The notes beneath the pieces are model-generated. The model did no database searches. It was not told where the DNA came from and saw only the letters and a program-made list of their open reading frames with translations. Below are positions 24,201 to 41,502 of a DNA stretch of 64,000 nucleotides, piece after piece (position 1 is the first letter of the stretch; each line of letters starts with the position of its first letter). The DNA is from Nymphaea colorata (Eukaryota > Streptophyta > Magnoliopsida > Nymphaeales > Nymphaeaceae). The stretch covers positions 29,305,206 through 29,369,205 of the forward strand of contig NC_045139.1 of the NCBI RefSeq assembly GCF_008831285.2, read 5' to 3'. A program made the translations under genes and the position numbers.

Positions 24201-25842
24201 TACTGTTTGCCCTAACCAGGAGCCTAACCATGGTTAAGTTTATGGAGAAAAAGGGGAATAAGGAAAAGGGCAAAAAAAAAAAAAAAAAAAAAGGAGGAAA
24301 TGAAATGATTATATATGGGTGGGATTGGGTCCCACCTCATTGAGGTCACTCAGTTTTTTGACCCAAAAAAGGGGGTTCTCCCTGGCCACCACTGTCTTTA
24401 TGAATTGAATGATAAAAAAGACCACCGCACGTGGAGTCTGAACCAAGGGACTCACCATTGTCCATTGCCCCCTCTTCTCTTCCTTTCTGTTAACCACAAA
24501 AATTTCAATTTACATGCTTTATTTTTATTTCGTTTGTATAGGCCAATATTGCCCATACATTTATATTATATCTATATAGATATATGTATAGTTGGATGTC
24601 TTATTCCCTTAGTTTTTTTGAACATTTATTAGCCTCTTGGTTTTGGTCGCGTAATCTCCTTCTTTGTCCCCTCGAGTTCTATCACTCCAAATGAGTCCTG
24701 CCGCCCTGCTGGATGAGTTCTCTCGTGGTGTTCTTCTTGTAAAACATGGTAATGAAGATTTACAGTCTGAGTTAGTGCTTTTATTTTCTTCTGACAAGTT
24801 TTTGAACTTCAAAAACATTAGTTATAGCCTATCACCTCCAGACAGATCGATAAAGTAGAGTTTCAACACGGAAGAGCACTTCAATAATTGAAAAGTTGAA
24901 TGGTGTCTGTGATTGGGATGTAATTTAACAAACATCAGTTCGATCTGCATGGTAAGAAGGTTTAAGATCACTTTTACGTTAGAGAAGGTCAACAGCTCAA
25001 TATTTGGCATGCATTTCATCTCATAAGAACGTCGTAGAAGTTTAACGAAAACAATGTGGAACTAGAGCACTTGGTTTGAGTCAATTGGTATGGCATCAAG
25101 TGATGATATGGTAAGTGCTATGCTATCTGCTCTGGCCAATCATGTGATGCCATGTGTGCAATAACTAAGGATGCGACCATGACATGGTAGTCTAGAGCAT
25201 CTACTCGGATCACTTAGCCGATAACGGGATCCATTCTTTGTAGGTCAGTTTCATCAAGAGCGCATAGATGAGAACCGCAAGAAAGCAATTTGGATTTTTT
25301 TTTTTTTTTTGACTTACATCCATGGAGCCTACAAAGAGGTGCGAAACCCAGTATGGACCAAGGCTGGCTCAAGCCCACCAGGAATACGAACAACATAGAC
25401 CCACCTAGCTAGAATGAACCAACATATTAGATCGGCCCTCAACTAGACCGATGCGGTGCCTGTAGATAGTACGAAACCGGGCCAAGCTTGAGCCCAGCGT
25501 GGACCCAACTGAGTCGAGCCCACCATGGAAGGTCGAGGGCAGAAGTGATCACTTTTCAGTCTGAGCATCATCTGCATGAACAATAATATGTGTTCCCTTG
25601 AAACCAATCACTATGGGCAATCTAGTAATTTCCTATCTTAAAAAAAGAACCCTTTCTCTTTTTTGATTGAAATTACAAAAAGAAGAAAAACAAAGGAAAA
25701 AAAAATTTATTTATTTTAAAAAAAAATTCTTAGCTTACAATTTCCTCACTATCGTTTTTTTCCTTGCTTAAAACTTTGCCTCCTCTCCCCTTATCCTTTT
25801 GTACACCCAAACGAACGCACGGACTCCCCACCGGAAAAGAAG
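20722..25842. other. Intergenic region, repeat-derived, no gene seen
   Basis: It holds two (TA)n tracts (21193-21221, 21377-21397) bracketing a short GC-rich insert, a pure A tract (24272-24292), and about 1 kb (22.5-23.5 kb) rich in words such as GGATCTG, CCAGATCC and GGTTCAGATC that look like decayed retrotransposon sequence. No in-phase exons or full transposon ends were found. The last 200 bases should contain the TCP promoter. Confidence 0.5.
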
Positions 25843-26985
25843 ATGAGACCGGAATTCTCCGACTTTTCGACACCGGGAAATGAAGGAATCCGGCGGCCGA
25901 ACCTTCCCCTCCAACTGCTGCTGGAGAAGAAGGAGGAGGACACTTGCTCGACATCTAACGGCTGTTATCTCGGAAGGAGCATGGACGCTTCCCTGGCCTT
26001 GTCTTCTTCCACTACCTCTAACACTCCCGCTGGTACCAGCGCCACAGCCGCCGCTGCCACCACCACCATCACCAACAACTCGGTCGGAAGCTGGCAGGAA
26101 ACAAAGAAGCAGGCGCCCAAGAGGGCGTCGACGAAGGATCGGCACACGAAGGTCGACGGTCGGGGCCGCCGGATCCGGATGCCGGCATTGTGTGCAGCCA
26201 GGGTCTTCCAGCTGACGAGGGAATTGGGGCATAAGTCCGACGGGGAGACAATCGAGTGGCTCCTCAGGCAGGCGGAGCCGGCAGTAATCGCCGCCACCGG
26301 GACAGGCACCATCCCGGCCAACTTTGCAACCCTCAGCGCCTCCCTCCGCAGCTCCTCCGCCGCGAGTTTGGTGGCGCCCCTCAAGGCAGCAGCCTCCGCG
26401 GCCACTGCTGCGGCTGCCAGCCACCACTGGGACGACGTGCAACGTAGAATTCTACTCCCCAACGCGGGAGTCCAGACGGAGAATCCCTACCTCATCGGCT
26501 TCAGGCCGAACCATCCTCACCAGGTGTTGATATCCAAGCCAGAGTTGCACCACCAACAGTGGATGGACGCGGCTGATCCCGAGTCCAGCACCAGCGACCG
26601 ATCGAAGAAGCAGCGACCAGGCCCGTCTGAGTTCCAAATACCTCCGCCGGCGGCCGGAAACTTCTGGATGGTCACGAACTCAAATAATCAGGGGGGTCTG
26701 GGCCAAGCCCAAGCAGAGCCCATGTGGACCACCAGCATGCCGAGCGGGCTTCATTTCATGAACTTCCCCCTCGGTTCCTGCGGCACGACGATATCGCCGC
26801 ATCTGCGGAGCATGTATGGCATGAGCGAGGGGCATTTAGACATGATCTCTGCTCTTAACATGCACAATAGCAGATCTCTAATGGCGGGAACCAACGACTC
26901 GTTGGCGGCACCGGAGTCGATGCCTGTGTCGGCGCCGGCCAGAAGGGATCATCAACAAGGGCAGGATGAGGGCCATGACCAGTAG
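25843..26985 (+). CDS. Class I TCP transcription factor (TCP14/TCP15-like)
   Basis: An intronless gene for 380 aa. The TCP domain (about residues 95-153) is textbook class [21 protein letters not shown], then [20 protein letters not shown] and [20 protein letters not shown]. It has the short class I basic region and the conserved Cys (residue 117), described as redox-sensitive in class I TCPs. The family binds GTGGGNCC-type sites as dimers in the nucleus and promotes cell proliferation and growth. The C-terminal part carries PGNFWMV-like (AAGNFWMVT), EPMWT and PSGLHFMNF motifs, seen in the TCP8/14/15/22/23 group. A Ser/Thr- and Ala-rich linker (51-82) and an Ala-rich stretch (about 175-195) are low complexity. 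The ATG at 25843 is the first in frame; Met47 would be an alternative start. GC content is far above the flanks, as is usual for this family. Confidence 0.95.
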
Positions 26986-35213: not shown

Positions 35214-38200
35214 ATGGTGAGGGCGAGGGGTCCCGTGTTCCACGGAAAGGAAGCTGCCGCCGTTGTCTGGCTATCGTCTGCGGCCCTCTTCTTCGTAATG
35301 TTCAGAGTTGCTCTCGACAATTCCTCCCGATCGACCCGCGGAGGTAATGCCTTCTCCTTCCGGCCGTTCTCGACAGGCGGATTCCGGATCCCTTGATCTT
35401 TTTGAGCTCCTCTATTTTATATACCTCCCAAATCGAGCGAATTGCGTTTTCCTTTTGGCTTGATTTTTTTTATTTATTTTCGATGCGATTTCGTCGTGGA
35501 ATGTGCGGGCGTTCTTCGACAACCACAATCGCATGCGGCTTCTGTTGTGAATTCTTCTCTGTCTTCACTTTGGTGTAAGATGTTTGTTGCTCGGAGAGGA
35601 AGCTTTCAAACGCCATTCCTCCTCCAAGTCCCTCTGTACCTCTCCCTATAGTTTCCTCCCAGATGCGTTTCTTCTTCACTATCGCAACAGGTTTAGGATT
35701 TCAACACCATTGATCAGGATCACTTGAAAGATTATTAGGCCTAGCAAGTTTCTTCAGACTTCTGCAACCTGCCAATAAACCCTTATTCATCTTGAACTGG
35801 CGAGATCAAGTTTTTCCTTTGCCCAAACTCTGGTCCCCCTGTAGGAGTTCAGTGCCGGCTACTTCATGCAGAAAATGACCTTCAAGGGGAGCTTGAAGAT
35901 CACCCTCCTAAAACTAACAATCTAGTGCACAATGTATCTGATCAACTATGTTACATGGGTATGGGTATAGATGCGGGTACACACACGAGTGTTGACCAAT
36001 TTCAAAAAGCTTGGGTATGGAGATACAATTGAGTGTGTGTATAAAACATGTAATTTGCATAATTTGTATATTTGTATGTATAAATAGTGCGTTCTTATGA
36101 AAAAGAAACAATAGCATTATAATTATTTGTATAATTTGCATGCTAGCAAGAAAATGCTGATAATGCAAACACAATAAACACAATCATATTCGTGCAAAAA
36201 GCAAACTGAGCAATTAGTGAGAGAAACTGAAACAGAAACGGATGGAGAGGCAAAGAAAAAAAAGGGAAGCAGAGAGATAGAAAAGTGAAAGAGAGAGGCG
36301 GAAAGGCAGAGAGAGAAAGAGAGAGGCAGAGAGATAGAGGAAAAAAGGCAGAGAGATAGAGAAAGAGAGAAGAAATAGTAGAGAGCCTATGCACATATGT
36401 CACATGGGTACGGATACGGGTGCTATTACGGGTATAGGTGTAGAGTCTGTAGACTACTTTTAAAAGACTTGGCGACACGGTCATCTATATATATGTATAT
36501 ATAGGTACATATATGTATATATGTACATATACAGTAAGATTTTAAGCAAATAAGCACATAAATTCATTTTCTACATTTATAAAATATATATTATTAAACC
36601 AAAAATGCTAAAAATTGACCAAAAACATATAAAAATACAAAAATATATCAAAAAATTTTAAAAAATAAACTATGCAGTGTCCAAGCAGTGTCCCATGCCA
36701 GCACCACTGTCGTCATACTTCCACCTTTTATAAGTGTATGTGTTACATAACTGGGCATACGTTTTGTTGGAGAGGGGAGAATCATCTGAGATGCCCAAAT
36801 GTTACATAACTAGGCATACCGTCAGCTTTGTGCATCTCGGATGATTCTCCTATCTCCATCAATAGGTATGCCTAATTATGTAGTACACAGGAATCAAACT
36901 AGAGACGCACCCCTCACCCAACCAGTTACTCTATGCTCCTTGAAGCTACTCGGTTGAAACTTCAAAATAGAACGTACAGTATCAGACTAAATGAGTAAAA
37001 GTCCAAAATCATAGCATTACAAATCATGAAAATTTTACTGTCCTGCAGAGTTCTACAAGAAAAACTCCAGTAAAAAATAGTTCAAAATCAGCAATATGTG
37101 GTGAAACTATCAGAGCATTCACAAATGGAATGTTTAGTGTGAGCCTTATTATTAGTTTAAATTTTAATTATTTTTTGTTATAAGTTGATATCAATTTCAT
37201 TGAAAACTGCTTCAGTTTTGTTGTTAATTTTAAAAATTAAGATTGCATTTTTTAGGTTATGTTTTTATTTTTGACTGCTTAGTGCACCTAGTCCCACCTA
37301 GGCTCTGTGCTCAACACACAACACCTGGGTTTGCACCCAGCGCTTTTACAACATGAGGACCTGCTAATCAATGTCTGGACTGGCTACATGGATGTATTTT
37401 CAGGGCATGGCATCACCTCTACAATTCTGACAGTACCCACTTTGGACTTTGCATCCACAGATTTTGGTGTTCTTGAGTTACGCAATCTCATTTCTGTTGC
37501 TCTACATACTGTCATATTATTCATCATATCTTGAATGATTCCACAATGTGTTATGATAACCTGTTACCATGGCTGGTGATGTTGACTTCTTTTTGTCTTG
37601 GCTTTCTATAGTAGATTTTAATAGATTTTTGCGGCAGTCAGGAAATTGATCCCTCCAAAAGATTTTATTGATTTTGGGAGCGATGATCAGGGTCTGGAAT
37701 TTCAAATTCAATAAAAAGGTCAGACTTGTATGATAAGATGGCTAGGGATCTGGATGAACATGGACCTCGTTTTCTTGAAGCTGGTGCAACTTCTCAGTCA
37801 TTATCACTTTCAGATATATTTTCGTTAAAAGATGGGTCTGTTGTGCCCATACTGAAGGTAAGGCTTTGTTTTGCTTTTTTTTTCTTAAACATGCTTTCAT
37901 ATCATTCTATTGGTTTCTTGATAAATGGCTACTGGGAAGACAACATACATTTAATTTCGCCTTTCTGGAGCACTCCAAGATGCACTTGCTTCTGTGTTGC
38001 AGGTTGCAGATCCACCTGTTCGTGCAAATGTTTTGTACTTAAGTCCTGAATATGCAGGGCATCTGTTGTGAGTTATTTTAGTTTTAATGTCTCATGATAT
38101 AGTCTTTTCAGGCAAATTTTCTCTTCTATAATGAAAGTGTATTTGAAATTGAGAGAAAATATCTGTTGCAGGAAGGCTGTAAAGAATATTTTTCTACCCT

Positions 38201-38433
38201 ACTTTGATAAAGGTTATGTTACACCTCCTTATCAACAAATACTGATCTTAGTTTAACTGCAATTTAGTAGAGGGGTTATTTTTTCCAGTCAAGTTCTACC
38301 GAATCTAGACTTTTTAGCTTTTATCTTGTCAAGTGCACATGAATGTCTTCATGTCTTTCCCACCTCATGGTTTATCTAAGATAGCACTCTCTAGCTGTCA
38401 GTTTTGACTATCTTATTCCTCCTCAAGTTGCCT

Positions 38434-38476
<43 letters not shown>

Positions 38477-38721
38477 TGACTGAATGATGACTTTGGCTAT
38501 CCAGAGTCACCCAACCATCTAACAAGGGCCATTCATCTGAAAAAGATGGATGGTTGAGAGAAAAAATAAGGAGAAAAAAGTGTGAACTAATACTAAATGA
38601 CAGAAATGTCCGTCACTTTTTTCTCATTGTTTTTCTCTTGACTGTCCATCATGATGGATTGGACGGTGGTGATTAGAAGCTTGGGTGACTCTGAAAAACT
38701 AGAGTCACCATTCAATTTTCC

Positions 38722-38753
<32 letters not shown>

Positions 38754-41502
38754 GTATAGGTAATACTGCTTCTCCATTGAAAACTACCATAATGGGCCCT
38801 GTGGATCTTCTGACAGTAATTCAAGAGGGCCCATAAGTTCTTGAGACTTCTTGTGGACCACTTTCTTTAACAATTTGCACACACACACACACACCCCCAT
38901 GATGAGAGAGATGCTCGAGAACTTATGCATCTGCACTATATATATACATATATATATAATTTTCCTTTGCATTTTTGTTTTAGTCTCTCTATTGATCTTC
39001 TCTTTTCTTTCTATAGAAATTTGGTTCCAGAATACAAGCCTCTATCACTTTAGCATGTTTCATGCCTCACACCATCTTGAACCAGTCCCTGCAACTCCTA
39101 ATGAGGTAGTAACTAGTGTCACAATAAAGTGCTCATGTATGAACATCCAATGTTAATGCACTTATAGAATACATCCATTGAAACGGTGTTTTTGCAAGAT
39201 TGAAGCTGAAGTGGGGGCTGTTAAAGATGTTTCTGTTCATCTCTGCCCATTGAAAATTGTCCTGGATAGAGTGGTGTTGACCTCTACAGGTGTCATCCTT
39301 GGCTTATGGCAGGTTTGCTTGTGGCCTTATATCTCTGCTCCATTTTGCTTTTGTTTTATTTCCTCAGCCATACTTCAGTACCCCTTTGTGTCCCTTTCTG
39401 TAGGATGCATGATCTGCATTATCTTTCCCTTCTTCACTAATTGTAATTTTTGGGAAGTGAATGTATATTAATTCTGCATTCATGCCATTCTTCATTTTGT
39501 TCATTCATTCTCGGTTTTCTGCAGTGGAATGGGAATTAATTTTCCTCCCGATTATGAGTTTTAAGTAGTACTGATATTGTAATGCTTAATCATCGTCCAT
39601 CTTCGATGTGGTCTTCTAATAATGTGTTTTTGATGCTAAAGAATTATCTGATAAGGTTATTCTGGCTTGCTGAAGCTCCATGTATATAGCTTAAACATGC
39701 TTCTCCATCTGATTACCAGTTTCATGATGAAGCAAAGCCTTCTTTCAGCAAGTCTTTTTTAATAATGTAGTGCACTTGCCAGCTGACTAATTAACTTCTG
39801 AGTTCTGTGGATAAAATTAACTGGTTGGTCCATGATTTCATGTATTTTTACCTTCAGTAATCAAACCCTCTGTGTGCATGCAGGTAACATCTGGTACAGA
39901 CCCTGTCACAATTCGTGGTGAATTAAGAAAGGCTCTTCCACGAGCACCACAAAAGCAACTTGTAACTTTCAATGGATTCTCCTGCTCTTTATTGCTGTGG
40001 AAAAGAAGAATATAAGCAGTTGCTGTTAGCTTGATCGATTGACAAAATTTCCTTTTTCCTTTTAATTCTTATTCTTTGCAGTATGACCCCATTCTACTTC
40101 ACACTTCCTTTGCGAGGCTTCTTGGTTCCCCAAAACTCTCTTCAGGGGTATGTGTTATTTGTTTGTGTCCTTTACAAATTAGTTCTTGTTTCATGGATGT
40201 TGAGAATACCTATTTCCAATTTCAGAAAGAAAAAAAGAATATATGTATTTCTACTTCTATGAATTGCTTGGTCTATGGTTCAGATTACCATCCAACGGAC
40301 TCTTTGTAATGTTTTATGACTCTAATGAAATTGATAACCACCAATTAATGGCAATTCAATGTGTTTTGATGGCATGTCACCCTTGGGAGTTCCTTCAAGG
40401 TCTGTGACTTTAGCATGTGCAGAATATAGTGAGGCCATTTTGAACGGATTTACCTTAGGCTGTATATAGGGTTTGATTAATGAAGCTGCACAGCCACCTA
40501 CGATAAGCAAGCCTACTATTTCCACAATCAAATTATTTGTTTCAGTAAAGCAGGTTGCAGTTGCCGTAAGACCTTTCTGATTGGGATATATGTTAGCAGC
40601 TGTGGGTGCTATATGTCAGTACAAATTCTGTGGTATAACATCTCGTGCCTGCATGTTCTGCTACATTCAAGCTATCACCTTTCAATAGTAATTTGTAGGT
40701 TTTTTTCCTCGTCAAGTCAAGGGTTTCTTATAATCTAGCAATGCATGTCTTCAGAGATCACTTCCATGGATGAGTCCCACCTCTCTCATTCACTTGAAGC
40801 ATTTTGATGGTTCAGGAGAATCTCACTGCTTGTACGTGAAGAATTACAAAGATTTGACTTGTCTGCTCAAAGTCATTCTCTTGTTTCCATTATTGCACAT
40901 CTCTCTCACTGCTTTTTCACTACTGAATATCCTGTGTCATGAATATCTGTTTTGTGGATTACTTGTGACTTTTTATTTGAAACTGGCTACTTGATCGTAG
41001 ATGATTCTTAATATTTACTTTTCTTGCTTTGTTGACAGTTATCATGTTCATGTTTTTTTTGTTTTCTCCACTCAGGCTATGGGCAAGAACTCCGATCTAC
41101 TTGCATTTTTCCATAATCTGGTTGGCCAAGTCAATAAGGAACTTCATGGATTTGAGGTCTGATGACTCGAAATACATTATCTGCTTGTATTTGAAACCTT
41201 ACATTGTCTACCATGCAACCCTGAAAATGAAACACATGTCTTGATTGCCCTGGATACAGTCCCACCTAATCTTGGAAATTATGAGCGTTGGATGCCGGGG
41301 AAATGAACTCTTGGAGTTCATTGCAAACTTGTCTTTCTGCTTTGTCAAATCATCCAACAATTCCCTTACAGTTGGTCTATTGTTTCTTCATCAGGCAGTT
41401 GTTTCTGAGCTCTGGTATGTTGAAGAATTTGATGTTCTGGCACTTGCTCTTAATGGAAGGATCGAAGCTCGGAAATTCCATCTAGGTTGCTCTAAAGATT
41501 GA
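35214..41502 (+). CDS. Membrane-anchored 2H-phosphoesterase-like protein (312 aa)
   Basis: Ten exons with GT-AG introns join in one phase: 35214-35343, 37691-37857, 38003-38067, 38172-38212, 39017-39105, 39199-39312, 39884-39961, 40082-40147, 41076-41156 and 41395-41502. The product is 312 aa. Residues 14-33 (AAAVVWLSSAALFFVMFRVA) form one membrane span near the N-terminus, so it is a probable type II membrane protein. The soluble part includes YDKMARDLDEHG, GATSQSLSLSDIF, LCPLKIVLDRVVLTSTGV and ALPRAPQKQL, and ends with VSELWYVEEFDVLALALNGR. Two motifs of H-x-S form, HFS (145-147, in LYHFSMFHASHH) and HTS (235-237, in ILLHTSFARLL), lie 90 residues apart, as in 2H phosphoesterases (LigT / 2'-5' RNA ligase / cyclic phosphodiesterase superfamily). 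I recognise it as a conserved plant protein type, but its substrate is unknown to me. Exon 2 must start at 37691, because an earlier AG would read through two in-frame TGA codons. Confidence 0.82.
35945..36490. repeat. Two copies of a GGGTAYGGGTRCGGGT-type dispersed repeat with a purine tract between
   Basis: Within intron 1 of the 2H-like gene, ACATGGGTATGGGTATAGAT at 35953 and CACATGGGTACGGATACGGG at 36401 head two related pieces. Each continues with a TTT(C/T)AAAAAG-type stretch. They share words with a third copy in VPS13 intron 2 (50803-50922). Between them lies a GA-rich purine tract (36237-36380). Confidence 0.6.
36237..36380. repeat. GA-rich purine tract
   Basis: About 140 bp is almost pure purine on the plus strand, built from AGAGAGA(A/G)GCAG variants. 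The open frames on the opposite strand (Leu/Ser/Phe-rich) come from this composition and are not genes. Confidence 0.85.
38434..38476. repeat. Compound (TA)n(GA)n microsatellite
   Basis: About 12 TA units and 10 GA units abut the left end of the MITE-like element at 38481. Another (TA)n tract (38722-38748) abuts its right end. Confidence 0.93.
38481..38714. mobile_element. MITE-like element with 42-bp terminal inverted repeats
   Basis: The left end (38481-38522) starts TGAATGATGACTTTGG and contains CAGAGTCACCCAA. The right end (38673-38714), read on the other strand, starts TGAATGGTGACTCTAG and contains the same CAGAGTCACCCAA core. Aligned, 34 of 42 positions agree. The element is about 234 bp, non-coding, and lies in intron 4 of the 2H-like gene between two (TA)n tracts, which suggests TA as the target. 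The ends do not match the Stowaway or Tourist ends I know. Confidence 0.78.

Follow-up and report, generated by a model that had tools for sequence, protein, structure and literature searches.

A Nymphaea colorata gene for a putative membrane-anchored protein with 2H phosphoesterase-like motifs

The locus raises the question of whether a plant gene whose product carries an N-terminal hydrophobic stretch and paired H-x-S motifs encodes a membrane-anchored enzyme of the 2H phosphoesterase superfamily. The gene lies in the window, i.e., the whole 64-kb stretch of DNA that was analysed, and its exon model was read from the DNA sequence alone. The first-pass annotation had described ten exons at 35214..41502 (+) and a 312-aa product, and this description proved exact: the exons join without a break in a single frame (Table 1). 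The joined 939 nt make up 312 codons and a stop, with the predicted start codon ATG at 35214 and the TGA ending at 41502, and GT-AG borders were found at 9/9 introns. The coding GC content per codon position is 0.58/0.40/0.36, and that of the introns 0.28-0.40.

Table 1. Positions of the gene parts, protein motifs and other features in the window
Feature	Position	Strand	Remarks
Exon 1	35214..35343	+	Residues 1-43; GT donor, frame; carries the predicted membrane span
Exon 2	37691..37857	+	Linker from span to putative domain
Exon 3	38003..38067	+	
Exon 4	38172..38212	+	
Exon 5	39017..39105	+	First HxS motif
Exon 6	39199..39312	+	
Exon 7	39884..39961	+	
Exon 8	40082..40147	+	Second HxS motif
Exon 9	41076..41156	+	
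Exon 10	41395..41502	+	Includes stop codon
Predicted single membrane span, residues 14-34	35253..35315	+	Hydropathy; limits approximate, by eye
H145-F-S147 and H150-A-S152	39046..39069	+	Residue positions placed on the sequence by hand
H150-A-S152 alone	39061-39069	+	Third HxS motif
H235-T-S237-F-A-R240	40100..40117	+	Cf. LigT H125-I-T127-L-L-R130
Cullin gene main exon, 688-aa open frame	5260-7326	-	Cullin E 1e-216, cullin neddylation E 1e-27
Open frame with TCP transcription factor domain	25720-26985	+	E 3e-31
tRNA-Met (CAT)	12371-12442	+	ARAGORN and Rfam
Open frame for a small secreted-like protein	2881-3276	+	Signal peptide and four cysteines, by eye; no Pfam match up to E 0.01

Repeat structures were observed in two introns. 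Intron 1 (2347 nt) contains, at window positions 36739-36887, two 61-nt arms that are 82% complementary and have 27 nt between them, and this arm pair resembles a short transposable element of the hairpin type. In intron 4, a stretch at window positions 38433-38750 is flanked by two TA-repeat runs and holds a 21-nt hairpin, the arms of which (38562-38582 and 38614-38634) are 90% complementary. The ends of the stretch resemble inverted GAGTCACC by eye, and the stretch may represent another small mobile element.

The N-terminal membrane span claimed previously was supported at the level of a hydrophobic stretch: residues 16-34 are the most hydrophobic of the protein, and the top 19-residue stretch, beginning at residue 16, has a mean Kyte-Doolittle value of 2.04. 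The net charge is +2 for residues 1-13 and +1 for residues 35-49, located after the predicted span. For type II signal anchors, the difference in charge between the N-terminus and the segment following the span is used as a topology rule. Applied to this protein, the rule leans towards a cytosolic N-terminus, by one unit of charge. N-glycosylation sequons are present at N36 and N140, and the latter (N140-T-S) lies five residues from H145.

Both HxS motifs of the first-pass annotation, at H145 and H235 and 90 residues apart, were found as claimed, and the distance agrees with the approximately 80-90 residues that separate the two H-x-[ST] motifs of 2H proteins. A third HxS motif, H150-A-S152, had been missed; it is placed five residues past H145. 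Since the LigT motifs are H43-L-T45 and H125-I-T127, the functional pair is by analogy likelier to be H145 and H235 than one that includes H150. The latter occupies the position of LigT Phe48 (H+5), the base-stacking residue of that enzyme (PMC5283653). R240, at +5 of the second His, takes the place of E. coli LigT Arg130, which is invariant in 11/11 aligned LigT sequences. By eye, the sequences around the two motifs, LYHFSMFH and LLHTSFAR, are similar, as a twofold symmetric 2H active site (PMC5283653) would suggest. Resemblance seen by eye between LigT and the protein around the motifs was excluded as a test.

To estimate how often the motifs arise by chance, the protein was shuffled and 84 E. 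coli open frames served as decoys. In 19.3% of 20,000 shuffles an H-x-[ST] pair without further context was present at a distance of 60-120 residues, and the HxS pair as originally put forward is therefore weak evidence. Once each motif also had to be preceded by two hydrophobic residues and followed by one, the share fell to 0.225% of shuffles. With a single hydrophobic residue required behind each motif and a distance of 70-110 residues, the pattern was found in 3.6% of shuffles and in 2/84 E. coli open frames. With Arg added at +5 of the second motif, the LigT-derived pattern becomes H-x-[ST]-hydrophobic, 70-110 residues, H-x-[ST]-hydrophobic-x-R. It was present in 0.19% of 200,000 shuffles, a value that is optimistic, as are the other shuffle percentages, because contexts and spacings were chosen after seeing the protein. 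The same pattern was seen in 0/84 E. coli open frames (at least 150 aa) and, with a spacing of 60-120 allowed, in 90/94 sequences of the LigT set. In these 90 sequences the motifs are 77-86 residues apart, and the spacing of 90 in the window protein is outside this range.

The earlier 2H reading held in part. The two-motif layout, R240 and the hydrophobic N-terminal segment are in keeping with a membrane-anchored 2H type, but the protein was unrecognised by 2H family models, solved structures and a LigT profile, and threading was no better than for shuffles. In Pfam, the 2H models (PF02834, PF13563, PF10469 and PF22547, among others) gave no match up to E 10 to either the whole protein or its C-terminal 206 aa. 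The sole row for the whole protein was FliMN_C (E 0.036, below the cut-off). Controls included in the same run as the C-terminal piece scored above the cut-off: E was 3e-22 and 2e-25 for two LigT proteins, and 3e-8 for a 99-residue fragment of a viral LigT. NCBIfam and PHROGs contained no match to the protein. The phmmer search of the PDB, up to E 10, returned no 2H structure, its single row being an unrelated RNA-binding protein (E 1.3); no CNPase or Arabidopsis CPDase chain was among the matches at that threshold.

Comparisons with LigT were made with sets for which 10/39 plasmid records with a LigT match were taken and the best 80 of 551 relatives were kept. With hhalign, an alignment of 11 LigT sequences matched the protein at a probability of 0.2%, and LigT motif 1 was placed on motif 2 of the window protein. 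Alignment to the whole LigT profile (94 sequences, comprising 11 aligned rows and 83 loci) scored -28.9 vs a shuffle mean of -27.0, and 93/150 shuffles were equal or better. For an ordered chain of eight LigT blocks (14 of those 94 sequences), equal or better scores were reached by 162/400 free shuffles, 149/400 motif-keeping shuffles and 16/55 E. coli decoys. Without overall significance, the block chaining placed LigT H43 on H145, and H125/R130 on H235/R240.

To gauge the reach of such comparisons, a LigT profile was run against the PDB, where it found AKAP7 (A-kinase anchor protein 7) with E 2.7e-6, ASCC1 with 1.3 and Acb1 with 1.6; CNPase was absent from the list of 22 rows. Because the LigT profile misses true 2H enzymes, the negative sequence tests neither exclude nor support a 2H fold. 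The curated 2H models are not known to recognise all members of the superfamily. The identity between CNPase and LigT is slightly above 10%, and 2H structures superpose at identities down to 7% (PMC5283653).

Relatives were searched for at several levels. The protein search of its own genome (an assembly of 407,766,735 bases in 783 contigs) gave 9 matches among the best candidates scored. As 9/9 fell within this gene, there was no paralogue for alignment, and no second copy was found in the own genome among the candidates scored. In the 64-kb window, tblastn with the protein produced 14 rows: eight were pieces of the gene itself (E < 1e-12), and the remaining six, one of them within intron 8 of the gene, were chance matches (E at least 0.63). 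With six peptides, 4 stretches were matched in viral contigs and 110 in prokaryote genomes, 0 of which were confirmed as relatives in either set. These searches used short peptides of one sequence and therefore reach close relatives only. In phages, tblastn with the window protein gave zero matches. Among the literature matches listed, none dealt with the protein.

The reading given somewhat better than even chances is that of a putative single-pass anchored 2H-like enzyme, with a 2H fold and 2',3'-cyclic phosphodiesterase activity. On the sequence features described above, membership of the 2H superfamily is plausible, not established. The protein would have a short basic N-terminus, one span (about residues 14-34) and a linker reaching to approximately residue 100, followed by some 210 C-terminal residues that would fold into the two lobes of a 2H phosphoesterase. 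The motifs H145-x-S147 and H235-x-S237 would be located on paired strands and face one pocket, where one His would activate water, the other would protonate the leaving oxygen, and the serines and R240 would grip the phosphate. A 2',3'-cyclic phosphate, of a nucleotide or an RNA end, would be opened to a 2'-phosphate. In LigT, His125 activates water, His43 protonates the leaving group, and the HxT motifs and Arg130 hold the phosphate (PMC5283653). According to the same source, Arg130 joins His125 in coordinating the nucleophilic water and also binds the product phosphate. If the fold is 2H, 2',3'-cyclic phosphate is therefore the most likely substrate.

The protein might instead be a plant membrane protein of some other, undescribed fold with coincidental HxS motifs, a possibility with appreciable weight but the less likely one. 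The homology and threading tests, all negative, agree with it, and three HxS motifs in 312 aa together with a bare pair in 19% of shuffles make coincidence easier to accept. It fits poorly with the rarity of the fuller pattern with hydrophobic residues and Arg at +5 (0.19% of shuffles, 0/84 decoys), and the tests in its favour lose force from the true 2H members that the LigT profile overlooks (ASCC1 at E 1.3, Acb1 at 1.6, CNPase unlisted). With a fold other than 2H, the gene would be that of an ordinary uncharacterised membrane protein. Improbable is a 2H-fold membrane protein that binds a ligand or another protein and is non-catalytic. Its spacing and sequence have diverged from LigT, and some 2H-fold proteins, e.g., AKAP7, serve in anchoring, but this copy has both His and both Ser residues as well as the Arg.

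Under the preferred reading of a single-pass anchored 2H-like enzyme, a domain that faces the lumen of the secretory pathway and clears 2',3'-cyclic nucleotides released there by T2-type ribonucleases is doubtful: the charges of +2 before and +1 after the span, plus the linker, resemble a type II signal anchor, but the difference is one unit, and a glycan at N140 might obstruct the pocket, which would speak for a domain in the cytosol. More speculative, and improbable as a whole, is the proposal that the gene represents a divergent unnamed plant 2H family in endomembranes, whose lumenal or cytosolic domain would destroy 2',3'-cyclic nucleotides that arise from RNA breakdown under stress and in this way set the level of the stress signal at the membrane. 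If the fold is 2H, an additional membrane-held enzyme, beside the putative plant one already named for removal of the 2',3'-cyclic nucleotide signal, would provide this signal with a location and a genetically testable off-switch.

Among the known systems, LigT/ThpR (PF02834 LigT_PEase, PF13563 2_5_RNA_ligase2) resembles the window protein in its two H-x-[ST] motifs, with a spacing of 82 in E. coli vs 90 here, and in the Arg five residues after the second His. It differs in that sequence similarity to the window protein is undetectable, also at the level of profiles, and E. coli LigT (176 aa) is without the N-terminal hydrophobic span and linker. Arabidopsis CPDase, a plant enzyme of the proposed activity, is known as soluble, unlike the predicted membrane-anchored protein of the window. 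A 2H-type label has been given to another plant protein (PMC4202796). The same label is used for At5g40190. This locus is listed among ubiquitin-related genes in PMC6022867, and divergent transcription is described at the promoter of At3g28140 (PMC7049701). A putative Arabidopsis 2',3'-cNMP cyclic phosphodiesterase is cited in PMC8968299; the terms 'phosphodiesterase' and 'CPDase' were absent from a paper on plant cAMP isomers (PMC13155313).

A parallel for the membrane attachment is CNPase of vertebrate myelin, which has a 2H-type motif pair and is membrane-held (PMC4643303). The earlier remark that a membrane-tethered 2H enzyme would be unusual was overstated, as the tail of CNPase, itself a 2H enzyme, is anchored in the membrane. 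This tail is C-terminal and bears an isoprenylated cysteine, and CNPase also has a kinase-like domain (PMC4643303). Anchoring by an N-terminal span in place of a lipid-modified tail would nevertheless be a variation among membrane-held 2H enzymes.
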